A stretch of 64,000 nt of DNA from Coleofasciculus sp. FACHB-1120 (GTDB lineage: Bacteria > Cyanobacteriota > Cyanobacteriia > Cyanobacteriales > FACHB-T130): positions 1 through 64,000 of the forward strand of contig NZ_JACJTV010000022.1 in the NCBI RefSeq assembly GCF_014698845.1, given 5' to 3'. The position numbers were made by a program, and so were the translations under genes. Below, one piece after another: positions 30,722 to 62,904 of the stretch. The notes beneath the pieces are model-generated. The model was given only the letters and a program-made list of their open reading frames with translations. It had not been told where the DNA came from and ran no database searches. The first letter of the stretch is position 1; each line of letters opens with the position of its first letter.

Positions 30722-31187
30722 ACCCTGTAATCCGACATTAAGCAGAATTAAACTTAAAGCTTTTCATCAGACTAGGCACGGCTGGGATAGTTCCCTGTTT
30801 CAGGAAAGCAGGAGCGTCTCCTAGGCAGCAGATAGCAGGTGAAGGATTAGCCGCATTTAGCAGCATACGCTATGCGAGGAGTGCGGGTACACGCGCCGCA
30901 CGCTACGCGAGGAGCGCTTTTCGCTCTCATCAACAAAATTCTCCCGGCTAGCTGCCTTGAGGTATCCTGTATAACCTCAAGGCAGCTTTCATGAGTTTGG
31001 TGGGGTTGTAAGGGCACATGAACCCTTGGCGTTACCAGTGCAGCTTGTACGGAACTATGGCATTTCCCTGAGTAGTTGGGCTAGACTTTGGACTTGAACG
31101 CCTTTGGATTTGTCGCGCTCATCGCGATTATTTGTCAATGACGGTACATCAATTACTAACCTGCTAACAGCGAGTAGAAACAAAAAT
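30722..31187. other. Divergent intergenic region with repeats
   Basis: This lies between the membrane protein (minus) and the epimerase (plus). At 30861-30917 are GC-rich palindromic repeats (ATACGCTATGCGAGGAG, CGCCGCACGCTACGCGAGGAGCG) of a kind scattered in cyanobacterial genomes. At 30950-30987 is a perfect 14-bp hairpin. Promoters for both genes must lie here but were not identified. Confidence 0.6.
30950..30987. repeat. Perfect 14-bp inverted repeat
   Basis: AGCTGCCTTGAGGT at 30950-30963 pairs with ACCTCAAGGCAGCT at 30974-30987 across a 10-base loop. It is about 200 bases upstream of the epimerase start, between divergent genes, so it is more likely a repeat or leader structure than a terminator. 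Confidence 0.75.
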
Positions 31188-57190: not shown

Positions 57191-60100
57191 TCAAGCTTGG
57201 ATGCGTCCGGTGAGGTTAGCGATCGCCGTCGCTAACTCCGCTGGGTTCACAGGCTTAGGAATGTGTACCTGGAAGCCTGCTTGGAGAGCCTTTGTACGGT
57301 CTTCAGCGCTGGCGTAGGCACTTAAGCACACAGCCGGAATTTTTCCGCTTTGTGTATCCAGCGCCCTGACTTTACGAATTAAGGCGTAGCCATCTTCTCC
57401 GGGCATCCCAATATCGCTTACCAAGATATCTGTCTGCAAGCGGTGAAGCGCTTCCAGTGCTTCGCCTGCACCCGTTACAGCGGTGACTTGAGCCTGATAT
57501 TGCTCCAAGATAGCAATTAGCACTTCGCGGGCGTCGGCTTCATCATCCACGATTAGCACTCGCAAGCCATCCAGACTGACGGGAGAAGCAAAGTTGCCGG
57601 AGGAGAGAGGAAGGTGAGAATCGAGTTCATCCTTCCGCTTTCTGACTTCATCCGTCCGCAACGGTAGATTCACAATAAAGGTTGTGCCTAACCCCAGTCC
57701 AGGGCTTTGAGCGCAGACAGTTCCCCCTTGCAATTCTACGAGGTGGCGCACGATCGCGAGTCCGAGTCCGAGTCCGCCATGCGATCGCGTCGTTGTACCA
57801 TCGGCTTGACGAAAGCGTTCAAATACATAAGGGAGAAAGTCGGCACTAATTCCCTGTCCCGTATCAGTTACTCTGATTTGGGCATAGTTGGAAATCGGGT
57901 GTTCATTCCCATTCCCGATTTCCACAGAAAGTTTTACCTCGATTCGCCCCCCCTTGGGGGTAAACTTGACCGCGTTAGAAAGCAGATTCCAGAAAACTTG
58001 CTGCAAACGAGCGGAATCGCCCAAAATGATTCCGGCTGAGCGATCGCATCTAGCGTCAATTTGAATATTTTTTGCTTCTGCTGCGGGTAGCACCGTATCA
58101 ATAGCCGCCTCAATCACGGGTACAAGTTCGATGGGGCGCACATTTAGGCGCAGCTTGCCAGTAATAATCCGCGAGACATCTAAAACATCCTCAATCAGTT
58201 GAGACAGTGCCCTTGTATTCCGGTCGATGGTTTCTAGGGCGCGGGCAACCGTGGCTGCGTCAAACTTCCGGGTACGGAGGAGTTGAGTCCATCCCAGCAT
58301 GGCGTTGAGAGGCGTTCGCAGTTCGTGGGAAAGGGTCGCTAAAAACTCATCTTTGGTGCGGTTTGCTTCTTGGGCTTCCCGGTAAAGACGTGCATTCTCA
58401 ACCGCGACGGAAGCCATCTGTGCTAGCTGGACGAAGATGGCTTCATCTTGTTCGCTGAAGTCACCCTCGTATTTATCCGACAGGTGAATCAAACCGATAT
58501 TGTTCCCGTTGTGTCCTATCAGCGGTGCGGCTAGCCAGCCTCGCATCGGTGAATTATCCGCAGTGCCAAATTCTTTCCAAGCGGGATGTGCCTCCAGTTC
58601 AGCTTGCGTCAGCCGCATCGGGCGGTTCCTCTGACAGACAAGCGAGTAGATGCCGGTGCCATCGAGTTTTTCAAGGAATTCGCGCCTGGGGGCATATTTG
58701 TCCGAGAGGGAGATGGCATTGATAGACTGCGCCCAGTCTTGATTTACCTTCAGGTTGGCGTGTGACTGGTGGGCACCGATGATTGTACGCGCTTGCTCGG
58801 CGATCGCTTGCAACCGCTGCTCGATCGAGAGTGTGGAGTTGATGGCTAAAGCCGCATCCGCCAAGCCTCGAAGTTGGGTTGCCCGTTGTTGTTCGTTGAG
58901 CAAAAGTTGGTTGCGTTCTTGCTCTAACTGCTTGCGATCGCTAATATCGGCAACAATGGACATACAGCTAAGATTTCCTTGAGCGTCACGCACCGGACAA
59001 GCCCAGACGCTGATATCAACCAGTGAACCGTCCTTCTTTCGCCGACGTGTTTCGATAGCCGTTAATGTTCTGCCATGCTCGATAGCATCAAGTTGTGCTA
59101 GGAACTCGTCTCGCTTATCTTCTAGGATGCTAGGAAGAAAACGGCCGACTACCTCTTGTTCGCTCCAACCGAAGATCCGCTCATCTGCTGGATTCCACAG
59201 TTTTACGGTTCCATCCTCAAGACTAAGAACTGTAATCCCTAGGGGACAAGCTTGAATCAGGCTGTCCAGAGTTTGGTTCGTTGCTTGCAGCGCTTCCTCA
59301 GTTCGCTTGCGTAGCGTAGCGTGCCGCCGGCTTTCGCTGATATCTTCAACCATGCCCAATCCATAGCAGGCTTTTCCTTCTCGATCAAAAATTGCCGTAG
59401 CTGTGAGATTTATCCATAAAATTTCTCCATTTTTCTTGATGTAACGTTTTTCTATTTGGTAGCTGGCTACCTCACCTTTAAATATTTGCTCTATATAACG
59501 CCAATCTTTTTCAACATCTTCGGGGTGGGTAATATCTGCAAAAGTCAATTGACTGAGTTCTTGTTCGGGATATCCCAACATCTCACAGTAGGTTTTATTT
59601 ATCTTGACAAACCGACCGTTTAAGTCAACAACGGAGATGCCAATGGGTGCTTCTTCAAAAAATGTGCGGAATCGTTCCTCGCTTTCCCGAAGCGCTTCCT
59701 CTACCCGGATGTGTTCTGTAATATCTTCGTGTACCAGAACCACTTCGCAAATATTTCCAGCTTCATCTTTTACAGGATAGATGAAAGCCTGCGTCCAGCG
59801 TTCTTGGTCTTGGTAATCTCCTAGCTCCGCAACATCATATACGATGGGTGGCATCTCTACCGCCTCGCCAGCAAATGCCCTTTGAATGTATGGCATGATG
59901 CCTTTAGCGACTAATTGGTGATCCTGCAACAGGTTGTATTCTGGAATTTGGTCAAGCGTGATTCCCCAAAGTTTTTCCCAAGCTCGGTTTACTTGAATAA
60001 TCCGACCATCGGGAGCCATAATTTGCGTACTCAAGGGGGACTGATCCACCAAAGCCCGGAAGCGAGTTTCTGATATTCGCAACTCCTGCTCAGCGCGTTT

Positions 60101-62440
60101 GCGTAGCGTAGCGTGCCGCAGGCTTTCGCTTAAGTCAATTGCAAAACCCACACCCGATTGGTTAGAGCCGCCCAGATAGCCTGTCCCTACTAAGACGGGA
60201 ACCCTGGTGCCGTCTTTGCGGATATATTCCTTCTCGAAAGGAGTGTGCGATCCTTTCTGCTGCATCTCCTCCATCGCCTGCATATCTAGATGCCGATATT
60301 CTGGCGGCGTCATTTCCGCCCAGTTCGCTTTTCCAGACAGCACTTCCTCCTGCGTATAACCGACAATGTTACAAAAGACATCGTTTGCCTCCAGGATATT
60401 GCCAGAAAAGTCCGCAATGATGACCCCGATGATATTTGACTCAATCAAGCGTCTCGCCCGTGTTTCGCTCTCTCTGAGAGCCGCTTCGGCTTGTTTGCGC
60501 TGGGTAATGTCGCGGGAAATGACCACGAGCCCTTTGATGCTTTTATCCTGATTGTGCAGTGGGGCTACGATATATTCGTAGTGTTGCAAGCCGCTAGCCG
60601 TTAAGAATTCATTTTCCTTCCTAATCGGTTCTCCGGTAGCGATTACTTCTTCTCTATGAGCATCGAATCGGCTCATAATTTCTTCTGGCAAGCCGATATC
60701 TCTCCAAGTTTTGCCTACTAGCTCGCTTGGCTCGAAGCCCACGACTTGGGCACCGCCTGTGCTTACATATTTGTAGCGACCTTCCCGATCGAAGATGTAG
60801 ATGTGATCGACAGATGCCGAAAGAATCGCATCCAGCGTACTGGCTTGTTCTTGAAGCTCGTTTGCAAGTTGCCGAGAGTTTTCTTCCGCTTGTTTGCGTA
60901 GCGTAGCCTGCCGCAGGCTTTCGCTAATGTCCCGTTGACTTCCCCAAGCTCGTACTAAAAAACCATTTTCCACAATTCCCACGAGATTGTTTAAGAAATA
61001 TTTGGAATTTCCTTCTTTATCCACCTCATAGGATTCGGCATCGTTGAGTCGGTAGCCAGACTGAATAAACGCACGTAAATATTCAAGATTATGTGGCTCT
61101 GAGGGAATCAGAAAAGTTTCTAATCTTACTCCAATAATTTCTTCTGTGCTATTAAAACCATACATTTGAGCCATAACCCGATTACATTCAGCTAAGTATC
61201 CATATTGGTAGAAATGCTTAATTTGTTCATCTTCTGAAAGTTCTATGGGAATCGGCTGCTCAAGTTCAAACCGCCAAATCCCCTCGGAACTCTGCTCAAT
61301 AAAAGCGCGGTAGCGCTCTTCGCTGTTCCTCAACAAGGCTTCAGCTTGCTTGCGCTCAGTAATGTCTCGAATAATACTCAAAACTATTTTTCTGTCGCCA
61401 ATTAATAAGCTCTGGGCACTCACTTCTACCGGAAAGAAAGTCCCATTTTTGCGGCAGTGAATCGTTTCAAACAAAATACCTTGCTTGTCTGCTTGCTTAA
61501 GTTGACTATCTATTAAATCCAGAGTTTCTGGCGCTCGTAAATTGTTTATTTTTAGGGAAAGCAACTCTGATTTAGAATACCCATATGCTTGAATAGCAGC
61601 CTGATTGGCTTCAATAATTTGACCATCAAGCTGCACATATAAAACAATGTCACGACTGTGTTGAGAAAGAAGTTGATATCGTTTTAATTCTTCCTCAGCT
61701 GCTTTGCGCTCAGTGACATCAGTTAACATCGCGATCGCTTTTGGCATCGCTTCGCCTTTGGCGTCGCTGATACCGCCTTCATTAAAAATAAGATTTGTGG
61801 AGACAATTGCCCAAAGCGTCGAACCGTCTTTGCGGCGGTAACGGAAGTCAAACTGCTCTTTAATGCCGGGGTTCCCGCGCTCCAAAGATTGCTCTATCTG
61901 AATGCGAGCCTCTTCATCCATGAAGTCAAAAATTGAACGCCCGAGCATCTCTTCGACACCGTAACCGAACATCTCGGCTAACCGTTGATTGACATACTCT
62001 ATCCGCAGTTGGGCATCCAATAACCAAATGCCCTCGTTAGCCGTCTCGACAATGCTACGATATCGCTCCTCGCTAGCTCGTACTTTTAATCTGTTCCTCT
62101 CGGCTCGTTGCTTGGCAGCCTTTAATTCCGCACCGATCCAACTAATAAATAATGCCACCAACCCAAACACCGCCAGTCGCAGGATGTCCCCCCCACCAAA
62201 TAAAACTGAATGGAACGGAGAGATAAAAAAATAAGAAATCGTTAAAGTAGACAAAACGGTAGCTAGCAGTCCCGGTTTTAAGCCGCCGTACCAAGAACTC
62301 AACATTACAGCAGCAAAAAAAAGTGGGGAAATGTGCGGCTGAATGTGTGGAAATAACCACAGTGTCAGTACCCCGGCGCTAGCAACAGCGAGTACAGCAA
62401 CACCGTAGCGCCGTAATCGAGGATCTATTTTTTTTAACAT
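57191..62440 (-). CDS. Multi-PAS hybrid sensor histidine kinase
   Basis: This is a protein of about 1749 residues. The ATG at 62440 has AGGAG eight bases upstream, which decides the start. From the N-terminus it has a hydrophobic DUF4118-like block (about 10-100), eight PAS domains (some with PAC), a GAF domain, a HisKA dimerisation helix (phospho-acceptor His in TLSHELRTPLNAMLGW), a HATPase domain (NLLSNAVKFTP, DTGQGIS, GLGLGLAIV), and a receiver domain with Asp in LVSDIGMPGEDG. It is probably a multi-input light, redox or ligand sensor. Linkers between PAS domains carry in-frame palindromic repeat insertions. Confidence 0.94.
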   Translation of the reverse strand: MLKKIDPRLRRYGVAVLAVASAGVLTLWLFPHIQPHISPLFFAAVMLSSWYGGLKPGLLATVLSTLTISYFFISPFHSVLFGGGDILRLAVFGLVALFISWIGAELKAAKQRAERNRLKVRASEERYRSIVETANEGIWLLDAQLRIEYVNQRLAEMFGYGVEEMLGRSIFDFMDEEARIQIEQSLERGNPGIKEQFDFRYRRKDGSTLWAIVSTNLIFNEGGISDAKGEAMPKAIAMLTDVTERKAAEEELKRYQLLSQHSRDIVLYVQLDGQIIEANQAAIQAYGYSKSELLSLKINNLRAPETLDLIDSQLKQADKQGILFETIHCRKNGTFFPVEVSAQSLLIGDRKIVLSIIRDITERKQAEALLRNSEERYRAFIEQSSEGIWRFELEQPIPIELSEDEQIKHFYQYGYLAECNRVMAQMYGFNSTEEIIGVRLETFLIPSEPHNLEYLRAFIQSGYRLNDAESYEVDKEGNSKYFLNNLVGIVENGFLVRAWGSQRDISESLRQATLRKQAEENSRQLANELQEQASTLDAILSASVDHIYIFDREGRYKYVSTGGAQVVGFEPSELVGKTWRDIGLPEEIMSRFDAHREEVIATGEPIRKENEFLTASGLQHYEYIVAPLHNQDKSIKGLVVISRDITQRKQAEAALRESETRARRLIESNIIGVIIADFSGNILEANDVFCNIVGYTQEEVLSGKANWAEMTPPEYRHLDMQAMEEMQQKGSHTPFEKEYIRKDGTRVPVLVGTGYLGGSNQSGVGFAIDLSESLRHATLRKRAEQELRISETRFRALVDQSPLSTQIMAPDGRIIQVNRAWEKLWGITLDQIPEYNLLQDHQLVAKGIMPYIQRAFAGEAVEMPPIVYDVAELGDYQDQERWTQAFIYPVKDEAGNICEVVLVHEDITEHIRVEEALRESEERFRTFFEEAPIGISVVDLNGRFVKINKTYCEMLGYPEQELSQLTFADITHPEDVEKDWRYIEQIFKGEVASYQIEKRYIKKNGEILWINLTATAIFDREGKACYGLGMVEDISESRRHATLRKRTEEALQATNQTLDSLIQACPLGITVLSLEDGTVKLWNPADERIFGWSEQEVVGRFLPSILEDKRDEFLAQLDAIEHGRTLTAIETRRRKKDGSLVDISVWACPVRDAQGNLSCMSIVADISDRKQLEQERNQLLLNEQQRATQLRGLADAALAINSTLSIEQRLQAIAEQARTIIGAHQSHANLKVNQDWAQSINAISLSDKYAPRREFLEKLDGTGIYSLVCQRNRPMRLTQAELEAHPAWKEFGTADNSPMRGWLAAPLIGHNGNNIGLIHLSDKYEGDFSEQDEAIFVQLAQMASVAVENARLYREAQEANRTKDEFLATLSHELRTPLNAMLGWTQLLRTRKFDAATVARALETIDRNTRALSQLIEDVLDVSRIITGKLRLNVRPIELVPVIEAAIDTVLPAAEAKNIQIDARCDRSAGIILGDSARLQQVFWNLLSNAVKFTPKGGRIEVKLSVEIGNGNEHPISNYAQIRVTDTGQGISADFLPYVFERFRQADGTTTRSHGGLGLGLAIVRHLVELQGGTVCAQSPGLGLGTTFIVNLPLRTDEVRKRKDELDSHLPLSSGNFASPVSLDGLRVLIVDDEADAREVLIAILEQYQAQVTAVTGAGEALEALHRLQTDILVSDIGMPGEDGYALIRKVRALDTQSGKIPAVCLSAYASAEDRTKALQAGFQVHIPKPVNPAELATAIANLTGRIQA
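59309..59332 (-). repeat. In-frame 24-bp palindromic-repeat insertion (copy 1)
   Basis: On the minus strand it reads AGCCGGCGGCACGCTACGC followed by TACGC-like bases and encodes SRRHATLR between the PAC of one PAS domain and the next. The unmodified linker in this gene reads DITERKQAEA; here it reads DISE-SRRHATLR-KRTEEA. Confidence 0.85.
60101..60124 (-). repeat. In-frame 24-bp palindromic-repeat insertion (copy 2)
   Basis: It encodes SLRHATLR at the same linker position (DLSE-SLRHATLR-KRAEQE). It differs from copy 1 by two bases. Confidence 0.85.
60896..60919 (-). repeat. In-frame 24-bp palindromic-repeat insertion (copy 3)
   Basis: It encodes SLRQATLR at the same linker position (DISE-SLRQATLR-KQAEEN). 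The shared core GCAGGCTACGCTACGC is close to intergenic repeats near 30900. Confidence 0.85.
61731..61768 (-). repeat. In-frame insertion of a second repeat type
   Basis: Bases reading GACGCCAAAGGCGAAGCG and continuing into GCGATCGCGATG encode DAKGEAMPKAIAM within an otherwise standard PAC end (NEGGIS...LTDVTERK). The GGCGAAGCGATGCC core is a common cyanobacterial interspersed repeat and is followed by HIP1. Confidence 0.65.
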
Positions 62441-62904
62441 ATTCTGTTCTCCTGGTGAGTTCAGCATTTCGAGCGCTTCCCACGATCTAAATACCAACAC
62501 CGATTCTTAATGTGAAAAATGAAAAACGAATCTCCCACACCAGCGCGATCGCGTTAACCTAGCGCTAAAAGAGTCAGTTCGCTGGTTCGCACATCTACCC
62601 TAGTAGCCCCTCGATCCGTATCATAGCCAGATGTCAAAGTTTAGCCCCTCTATATTTCAAAATTTCAAAATACTGATGATGCTACCACCAGACACAGAAA
62701 TCGGCTCCAATTGGTCTGTGGCACAAGATTGCGCCATACTGTAACAATTTTGCGCGGTTGGGTTGTGAGGTTGGGAGTATTTCTTGGCTACCCCCGATGC
62801 GTTCATTTTTTCATTGGGGAAAGCTCCAATTCCTGCAAGGGTTTAATCGAATTGTGCAATAACTCTCCTAAAATTATCGGGGGATTAAGGATTTTAAAAA
62901 AATA
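62441..62904. other. Divergent intergenic region
   Basis: This lies between the kinase start (minus) and the helicase start (plus) and so holds promoters for both. Small direct repeats (TTTCAAAA near 62660) occur. No gene or strong structure is seen. Confidence 0.5.

Follow-up and report, generated by a model that had tools for sequence, protein, structure and literature searches.

We describe a known kind of sequence, the in-frame small repeat, in a new and strikingly restricted form: single-heptad cassettes that sit at one joint of cyanobacterial sensor proteins, namely the exit at the C-terminal end of a PAS domain. Homologous joints can carry different cassettes. The DNA analysed is a stretch of 64,000 nucleotides (hereafter the window; positions 1-64000 of contig C22 in the 6.2-Mb genome, G000, of a cyanobacterium), and its features of interest, all in a single gene, are as follows.

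57191..62500, minus strand: host gene, 1769 aa, with DUF4118, a PAS array, GAF, HisKA, HATPase_c and a receiver domain
59309..59338, minus strand: 30-bp cassette unit AGCGAA[21 bp]CGC encoding SRRHATL, with the 21-bp insert at 59312-59332; orthologous site empty in the sister species G001
60101..60130, minus strand: cassette unit encoding SLRHATL, with the 21-bp insert at 60104-60124; common to G001; the homologous G004 site has AYTELRL, another 7-aa cassette
60896..60925, minus strand: cassette unit encoding SLRQATL, with the 21-bp insert at 60899-60919; common to G001
61340..61366, minus strand: ordinary empty linker of the same gene, DITERKQAE (coordinates read from the sequence)
61731..61771 (end approximate), minus strand: net +7 aa insert (SDAKGEAMPKA) inside a PAS domain, not a linker cassette; adjoins the HIP1 octamer GCGATCGC at 61731-61738

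The repeat in the host gene

An earlier reading of the window from sequence alone (the sequence-only reading) had noticed three near-identical copies of a repeat, all in frame, at a fixed point of the linkers in a PAS kinase, and this was borne out. The copies at 59309-59337, 60101-60129 and 60896-60924 compare with 0.00 expected from 100 shuffles; all three are in frame, and each lies directly behind a PAS domain of the histidine kinase, where the repeat converts DI[ST]ERK to DISE-SLRHATL-RK or a close variant. The same reading held that in-frame DNA lengthens the linkers, and here the alignment agrees, showing orthologous sites without the insert. Its figure of 24 bp has to be corrected to a net 21 bp, or 7 codons (the orthologue has DISE-------RKRAEE as against DISESRRHATLRKRTEE), and its description of the repeat as palindromic is weak, the three strings folding as DNA no better than shuffled sequence (z-scores -0.28, -0.01 and -0.56). 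An in-frame linker repeat was thus recognised from the outset, but its one-heptad length and the other cassettes in the slot were overlooked.

Two further elements had been proposed in the window. The first, a copy of the element near 30900, is at chance level, the best 21-bp match having 6 mismatches, equal to that at an unrelated place, 36878. The stretch 30860-30925 is repeat-like, contains GCTACGCGAGGAGCGC and has an exact 11-mer in common with the cassette; it seems to be another repeat. The second, a different repeat inserted near 61731, stands as an insert (net +7 aa relative to the homologues in G002, G004 and G005) but not as a repeat: the 23-bp core has no second match at up to 4 mismatches in the scanned stretches, and a 20-bp piece has one 3-mismatch match, in another G004 kinase gene. 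This insert is common to G001 and lies within the PAS domain, ahead of the last strand and outside the linker. The HIP1 octamer beside it is also present in the G002, G004 and G005 homologues, which are without the insert.

Distribution of the cassettes

Searched as a 29-bp pattern with up to 3 mismatches, the SLRHATL cassette has 7 matches in the whole window genome and 17 in 4 of 40 genomes, the window's own included (7, 8, 1 and 1), and all 17 copies lie at PAS exits in a single frame and orientation. Among 386 phylum-sampled genomes, again with the window's own included, that genome is the sole match. A generally mobile palindrome entering diverse proteins and intergenic DNA, as had been suggested for this element, finds no support in such a placement. 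Dispersed relatives of the cassette are few in number: the 21-bp core at up to 2 mismatches matches outside PAS genes in 1 of 8 cases in G000 and 2 of 10 in G001, the loosest search (20-bp core, up to 3 mismatches) gives 2 of 9 and 3 of 11, respectively, and a near-copy of the core outside any long ORF has similar flanks in four genomes. Diverged SLRHATL-like copies (SRRHAAL, SLRHAVL) were seen at L208 (G001:C31) and G000:C1:343649 in the coil preceding a PAS-like region, not behind a PAS domain.

Searching 60 genomes under stricter filters (E at most 0.01) with a profile built from 16 filled sites brought up PAS linkers that hold unlike heptapeptides, which belong to at least three further 21-bp cassettes, AVAAATQ, RQAALRE and AYGELRL. 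AVAAATQ has 12 matches, every one at a PAS exit and all from a single genome of the 60, G004; RQAALRE has 10 matches in 7 of 60 genomes from four families, nine at PAS exits and the tenth in a coil preceding a PAS domain; AYGELRL has 17 matches (up to 3 mismatches) in 9 of 60 genomes, and the 8 at PAS exits come from four families. Its other 9 matches lie outside PAS linkers and lack a PAS core, several of them being GCGATGCCTACGGCGGGCTTCGCCTACGC or near it, and judged from these sequences the AYGELRL family appears to link the PAS cassettes to ordinary dispersed repeats. In a check with a PAS-core profile of our own making, the end of the profile fell at the slot for 16 of 16 distinct sites of SLRHATL, 12 of 12 of AVAAATQ, 9 of 10 of RQAALRE and 8 of 17 of AYGELRL. 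Diverged +7 linkers are present as well, for instance DISERQQQTMLCKQAE in G000:C15 and SLRHAVL in G000:C1. Near-identical repeats around TAGCCTACGGCACGCTGCGCTACGACAGGCTCA were observed on three G019 contigs (L211-L213), and several profile matches within 2 kb in G036:C12 (L214).

Conservation of DNA and of protein

Nucleotide identity between copies of a cassette averages 0.87-0.96 over the 21 bp; for the AGC GAN ahead of them the mean is 0.87-1.00, and for the CGN codon 0.94-1.00, values that are favoured, partly by construction, by our having found the sites by DNA pattern. Beyond about 12 bp to either side the identity falls sharply to 0.26-0.37. At fourfold-degenerate sites the identities of insert and flank are 0.89/0.22, 0.95/0.17, 0.89/0.30, 0.68/0.26 and 1.00/0.24. 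Because such sites are 68-100% identical inside the cassettes and 17-30% identical in the flanking codons, the likeness of the copies is, as far as sequence comparison can tell, one of shared DNA and not of protein constraint. A search for the peptides in any codons among the loci collected, many of which had been fetched by DNA pattern, yielded, for the four cassettes in turn, 16, 11, 12 and 8 distinct linkers, each with at most 4 mismatches in 21 from its reference; simulated random synonymous codons pass 3 mismatches in 2-10% of trials. Nor was the octapeptide found encoded by unrelated DNA in distant genomes, as the sequence-only reading would have expected of an ancient linker: a codon-degenerate scan of genome contigs for DI[ST][ED]xLR[HQ][AT]TLR, which may leave out the window genome and those very close to it, returned one record, Trichocoleus sp. 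FACHB-40, and the DNA there is related.

Filled, empty and swapped sites

In the sister species G001 the orthologous host gene carries two of these inserts and lacks the third, the counterpart of the 59309 site reading DISE-RKRAEE. Conversely, G001:C45 has two filled sites whose counterparts are empty in the window genome (G000:C1:123575-127546). Each of these three G000/G001 differences amounts to exactly seven codons. A fourth pair is formed by a filled site in G004:C63 and its 77%-identical counterpart in G000:C1 (200 aa), which reads DITERK. Further filled sites have empty homologues that are more distant (52-60% identity) and were not counted as orthologues; some of these read DISDRK, one with HIP1 DNA (C2:181752).

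One cassette may also stand in the place of another. SLRHATL at window position 60101 corresponds to AYTELRL in G004:C25 (64% identity over 118 aa, the genes matching at both ends too), and AVAAATQ in G004:C14 corresponds to RQAALRE in G001:C3 at a homologous linker (71% identity over 193 aa). We also note that the G004 homologue of window positions 59300-61000 (L095) has its PAS domains in another order, with the breakpoints in linkers; the joints that hold the cassettes seem also to be those at which PAS modules are rearranged.

The edges of the filled alleles read GAA...CGC, whereas the empty orthologues have GAG at two sites and CGG at one, so that the edge codons of the filled alleles agree with the cassette consensus at all three species-level polymorphic sites; between G004:C63 and G000:C1, AGC GAT is found in place of ACT GAG. 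These edge codons suggest a transferred piece slightly longer than the insert, as read from the sequences compared. Alternatively, the match could reflect ordinary divergence, for which the background is 5.4% and 9.5% in two genes.

Linker length and helix models

A survey of 351 PAS domains on stretches of G000, G004 and G002, which covered domains reaching the C-terminus of the model and took each linker once, found 283 linkers of unchanged length (+0); 51 domains without a clear helix motif and 3 without an anchor were not counted. All nine clearly longer linkers, a class judged partly by eye, are +7, and eight of them carry one of the four cassettes; the ninth, DISEAKRDEVVRKQ, carries none of them. 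A +7 linker of none of the four cassettes, DISEAKRDEVVRKQAQEE, was noted at residue 490 of its ORF in L264 (G000:C21). Of the 14 rows other than +0 the script had assigned ten to +7, and one of these (L258), together with rows of +8, +8, +15 and +17, was judged by eye to be a misfit. The stretches came from lists of PAS-family or kinase matches or were the largest contigs, and some were chosen with their cassettes already known, so the share of +7 linkers is not unbiased. From a separate regular-expression survey of linkers, which takes in many non-PAS proteins, single rows only were used.

In AlphaFold models of a PAS-linker-PAS segment, run as monomers with 23-row alignments, the filled version has one continuous helix of 30 residues (131-160; mean pLDDT 93.0, pTM 0.58) and the same segment when empty a continuous helix of 23 residues (131-153; mean pLDDT 93.5, pTM 0.70). 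The residues of the cassette inserts have no obvious heptad pattern. A step of seven residues is one that preserves the heptad register of a helix.

Possible origin and spread of the cassettes

The account that we favour, and consider somewhat more probable than its competitors taken together, is that DNA resembling a dispersed repeat enters a PAS linker, is tolerated there because its length is a single heptad, and passes from linker to linker through short homologous replacement akin to gene conversion. The 30-bp unit, AGCGAN[21 bp]CGC, occupies the position at the PAS C-terminal exit that in other linkers is taken by 9 bp encoding [ST]-[ED]-R, and it adds exactly one heptad to the helix that leads into the next domain; if coiled-coil register is what makes this tolerable, the addition may be functionally neutral. 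The slot, the seven-codon length and the sharing of DNA are observed directly, whereas the route of copying, its direction and the neutrality are inferred. The cassettes themselves may have originated as captured fragments of cyanobacterial small dispersed repeats. From a first PAS linker, gene conversion or template switching could carry a cassette into further linkers of this kind in the genome; homologous replacement could also exchange one cassette for another. SLRHATL and AVAAATQ are nearly absent outside PAS linkers despite an abundance of short targets, which argues for copying through PAS-linker homology (the DI...RKQAE codons) and against free transposition. No donor-to-recipient tract was traced for such copying. 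PAS copies of RQAALRE, like those of AYGELRL, come from four families, which goes beyond within-genome copying alone and needs repeated capture or horizontal transfer.

Alternatively, a tiny mobile element that targets a short motif (AGCGANCGC, often HIP1) might jump independently into each PAS linker. HIP1 (AGCGATCGC) does occupy 25 of 76 empty DI[TS][ED]R linkers in G000 and 20 of 63 in G004, exactly at the slot; the cassette unit resembles a HIP1 octamer split in two, and the AVAAATQ or AYGELRL unit minus its 21 bp is HIP1 itself. Similar repeats elsewhere in the genomes, and the distant empty homologues that read DISDRK, would fit such an element too. HIP1 is, however, abundant (2334 two-strand counts, or about 1167 sites, in 858 kb; 863 for AGCGATCGC), and yet SLRHATL and AVAAATQ are found almost only in PAS linkers. 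Moreover, none of the four closest filled/empty pairs has HIP1 at its empty site, the sequences there being AGCGAGCGC in two cases and AGCGAACGG and ACTGAGCGC in the others, and the marks of a MITE are lacking, in that no target-site duplication is visible at the three G000/G001 pairs and there is no significant fold. We therefore consider independent jumping unlikely. A bolder speculation, to which we give a lower chance still, is that PAS linkers form a recombination slot centred on HIP1 (GCGAT/CGC), in which heptad cassettes settle, displace each other and pass from one signalling gene to another, such that selfish DNA tunes linker length network-wide with HIP1 as the exchange point.

Presence and absence by themselves give no direction, and the longer linkers might instead be ancestral, the short ones having arisen by a precise 21-bp deletion; the diverged +7 linkers in G000:C15 and G000:C1 would be in keeping with this. 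Against this, the cassettes are bound to lineages (SLRHATL in 4 of 40 genomes and 1 of 386 phylum-sampled genomes, both including its own, and AVAAATQ in 1 of 60), the empty alleles differ among themselves and resemble ordinary DI[TS]ER codons, and the great majority of surveyed linkers are +0, so that gain of the cassettes appears the likelier direction and deletion improbable.

Duplication of whole PAS-plus-linker modules, the linker being carried along, would be in keeping with arrays that rearrange, as in the G004 homologue with its other domain order around the same sites. The PAS DNA upstream of the cassettes is, however, merely 0.26-0.32 identical between copies, so the domains do not stem from a recent joint duplication. 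Module duplication is contradicted outright at the three species-level polymorphic sites, where orthologous domains are otherwise unchanged, and we hold it to be very improbable. Least credible of all is protein-level selection for a particular octapeptide in an old linker: the linkers do retain their helix and the R-x-x-A-E start, but four unlike heptapeptides occupy the slot, the fourfold sites, near random in the flanks and conserved in the cassettes, already contradict it, and the same peptide with other DNA was not found among the loci collected.

Comparison with known repeats and linkers

The small dispersed repeats (SDR) of cyanobacteria are reportedly very short. They are roughly 20-30 nt long and dispersed, and their copies are largely non-coding. 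The cassettes fit this length, and AYGELRL, with 9 of its 17 matches outside PAS linkers, may resemble the SDR in its dispersal; SLRHATL (core matches outside PAS linkers 1 of 8 in G000 and 2 of 10 in G001), AVAAATQ (0 of 12) and RQAALRE (0 of 10) differ in having few or no copies outside PAS-type linkers at the thresholds used. SDR work (Elhai et al. 2008) is cited in passages of PMC3116915 and PMC3733652.

The Rickettsia palindromic elements (RPE) are described in PMC10969869 as being of about 150 bp, inserted in frame in unrelated protein genes, and tolerated by the host protein. Like these, the cassettes are repeated DNA in frame in coding genes; unlike the long, palindromic RPE of many unrelated genes, they are 21 bp net, fold little, and occupy one protein context and one slot. 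PARCEL palindromic coding repeats, as presented in PMC2996958, are likewise short and are mobilised within and between genomes, with hosts that include membrane and surface proteins, but they form multi-domain tracts, in contrast to the single 7-aa linker units of the cassettes.

For the coiled-coil linkers of sensor histidine kinases, the account in PMC6798134 has the activity of YF1 depend on 7n residues and natural linkers heptad-periodic. The cassettes agree with this in changing length by seven residues within what is predicted to be a continuous helix (from 23 to 30 residues), and go beyond it in that we propose recurrent 21-bp cassettes as a DNA source of natural heptads. No description of repeats in PAS linkers was found in the open-licence papers searched.

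The seven-residue rule is already known from engineering and from sequence statistics, and the cassettes offer a concrete origin for natural heptads. In contrast to the scattered insertions of Rickettsia, this in-frame repeat keeps almost entirely to a single protein joint, and its filled and empty pairs, together with the swapped ones, represent ready material for direct functional comparison.
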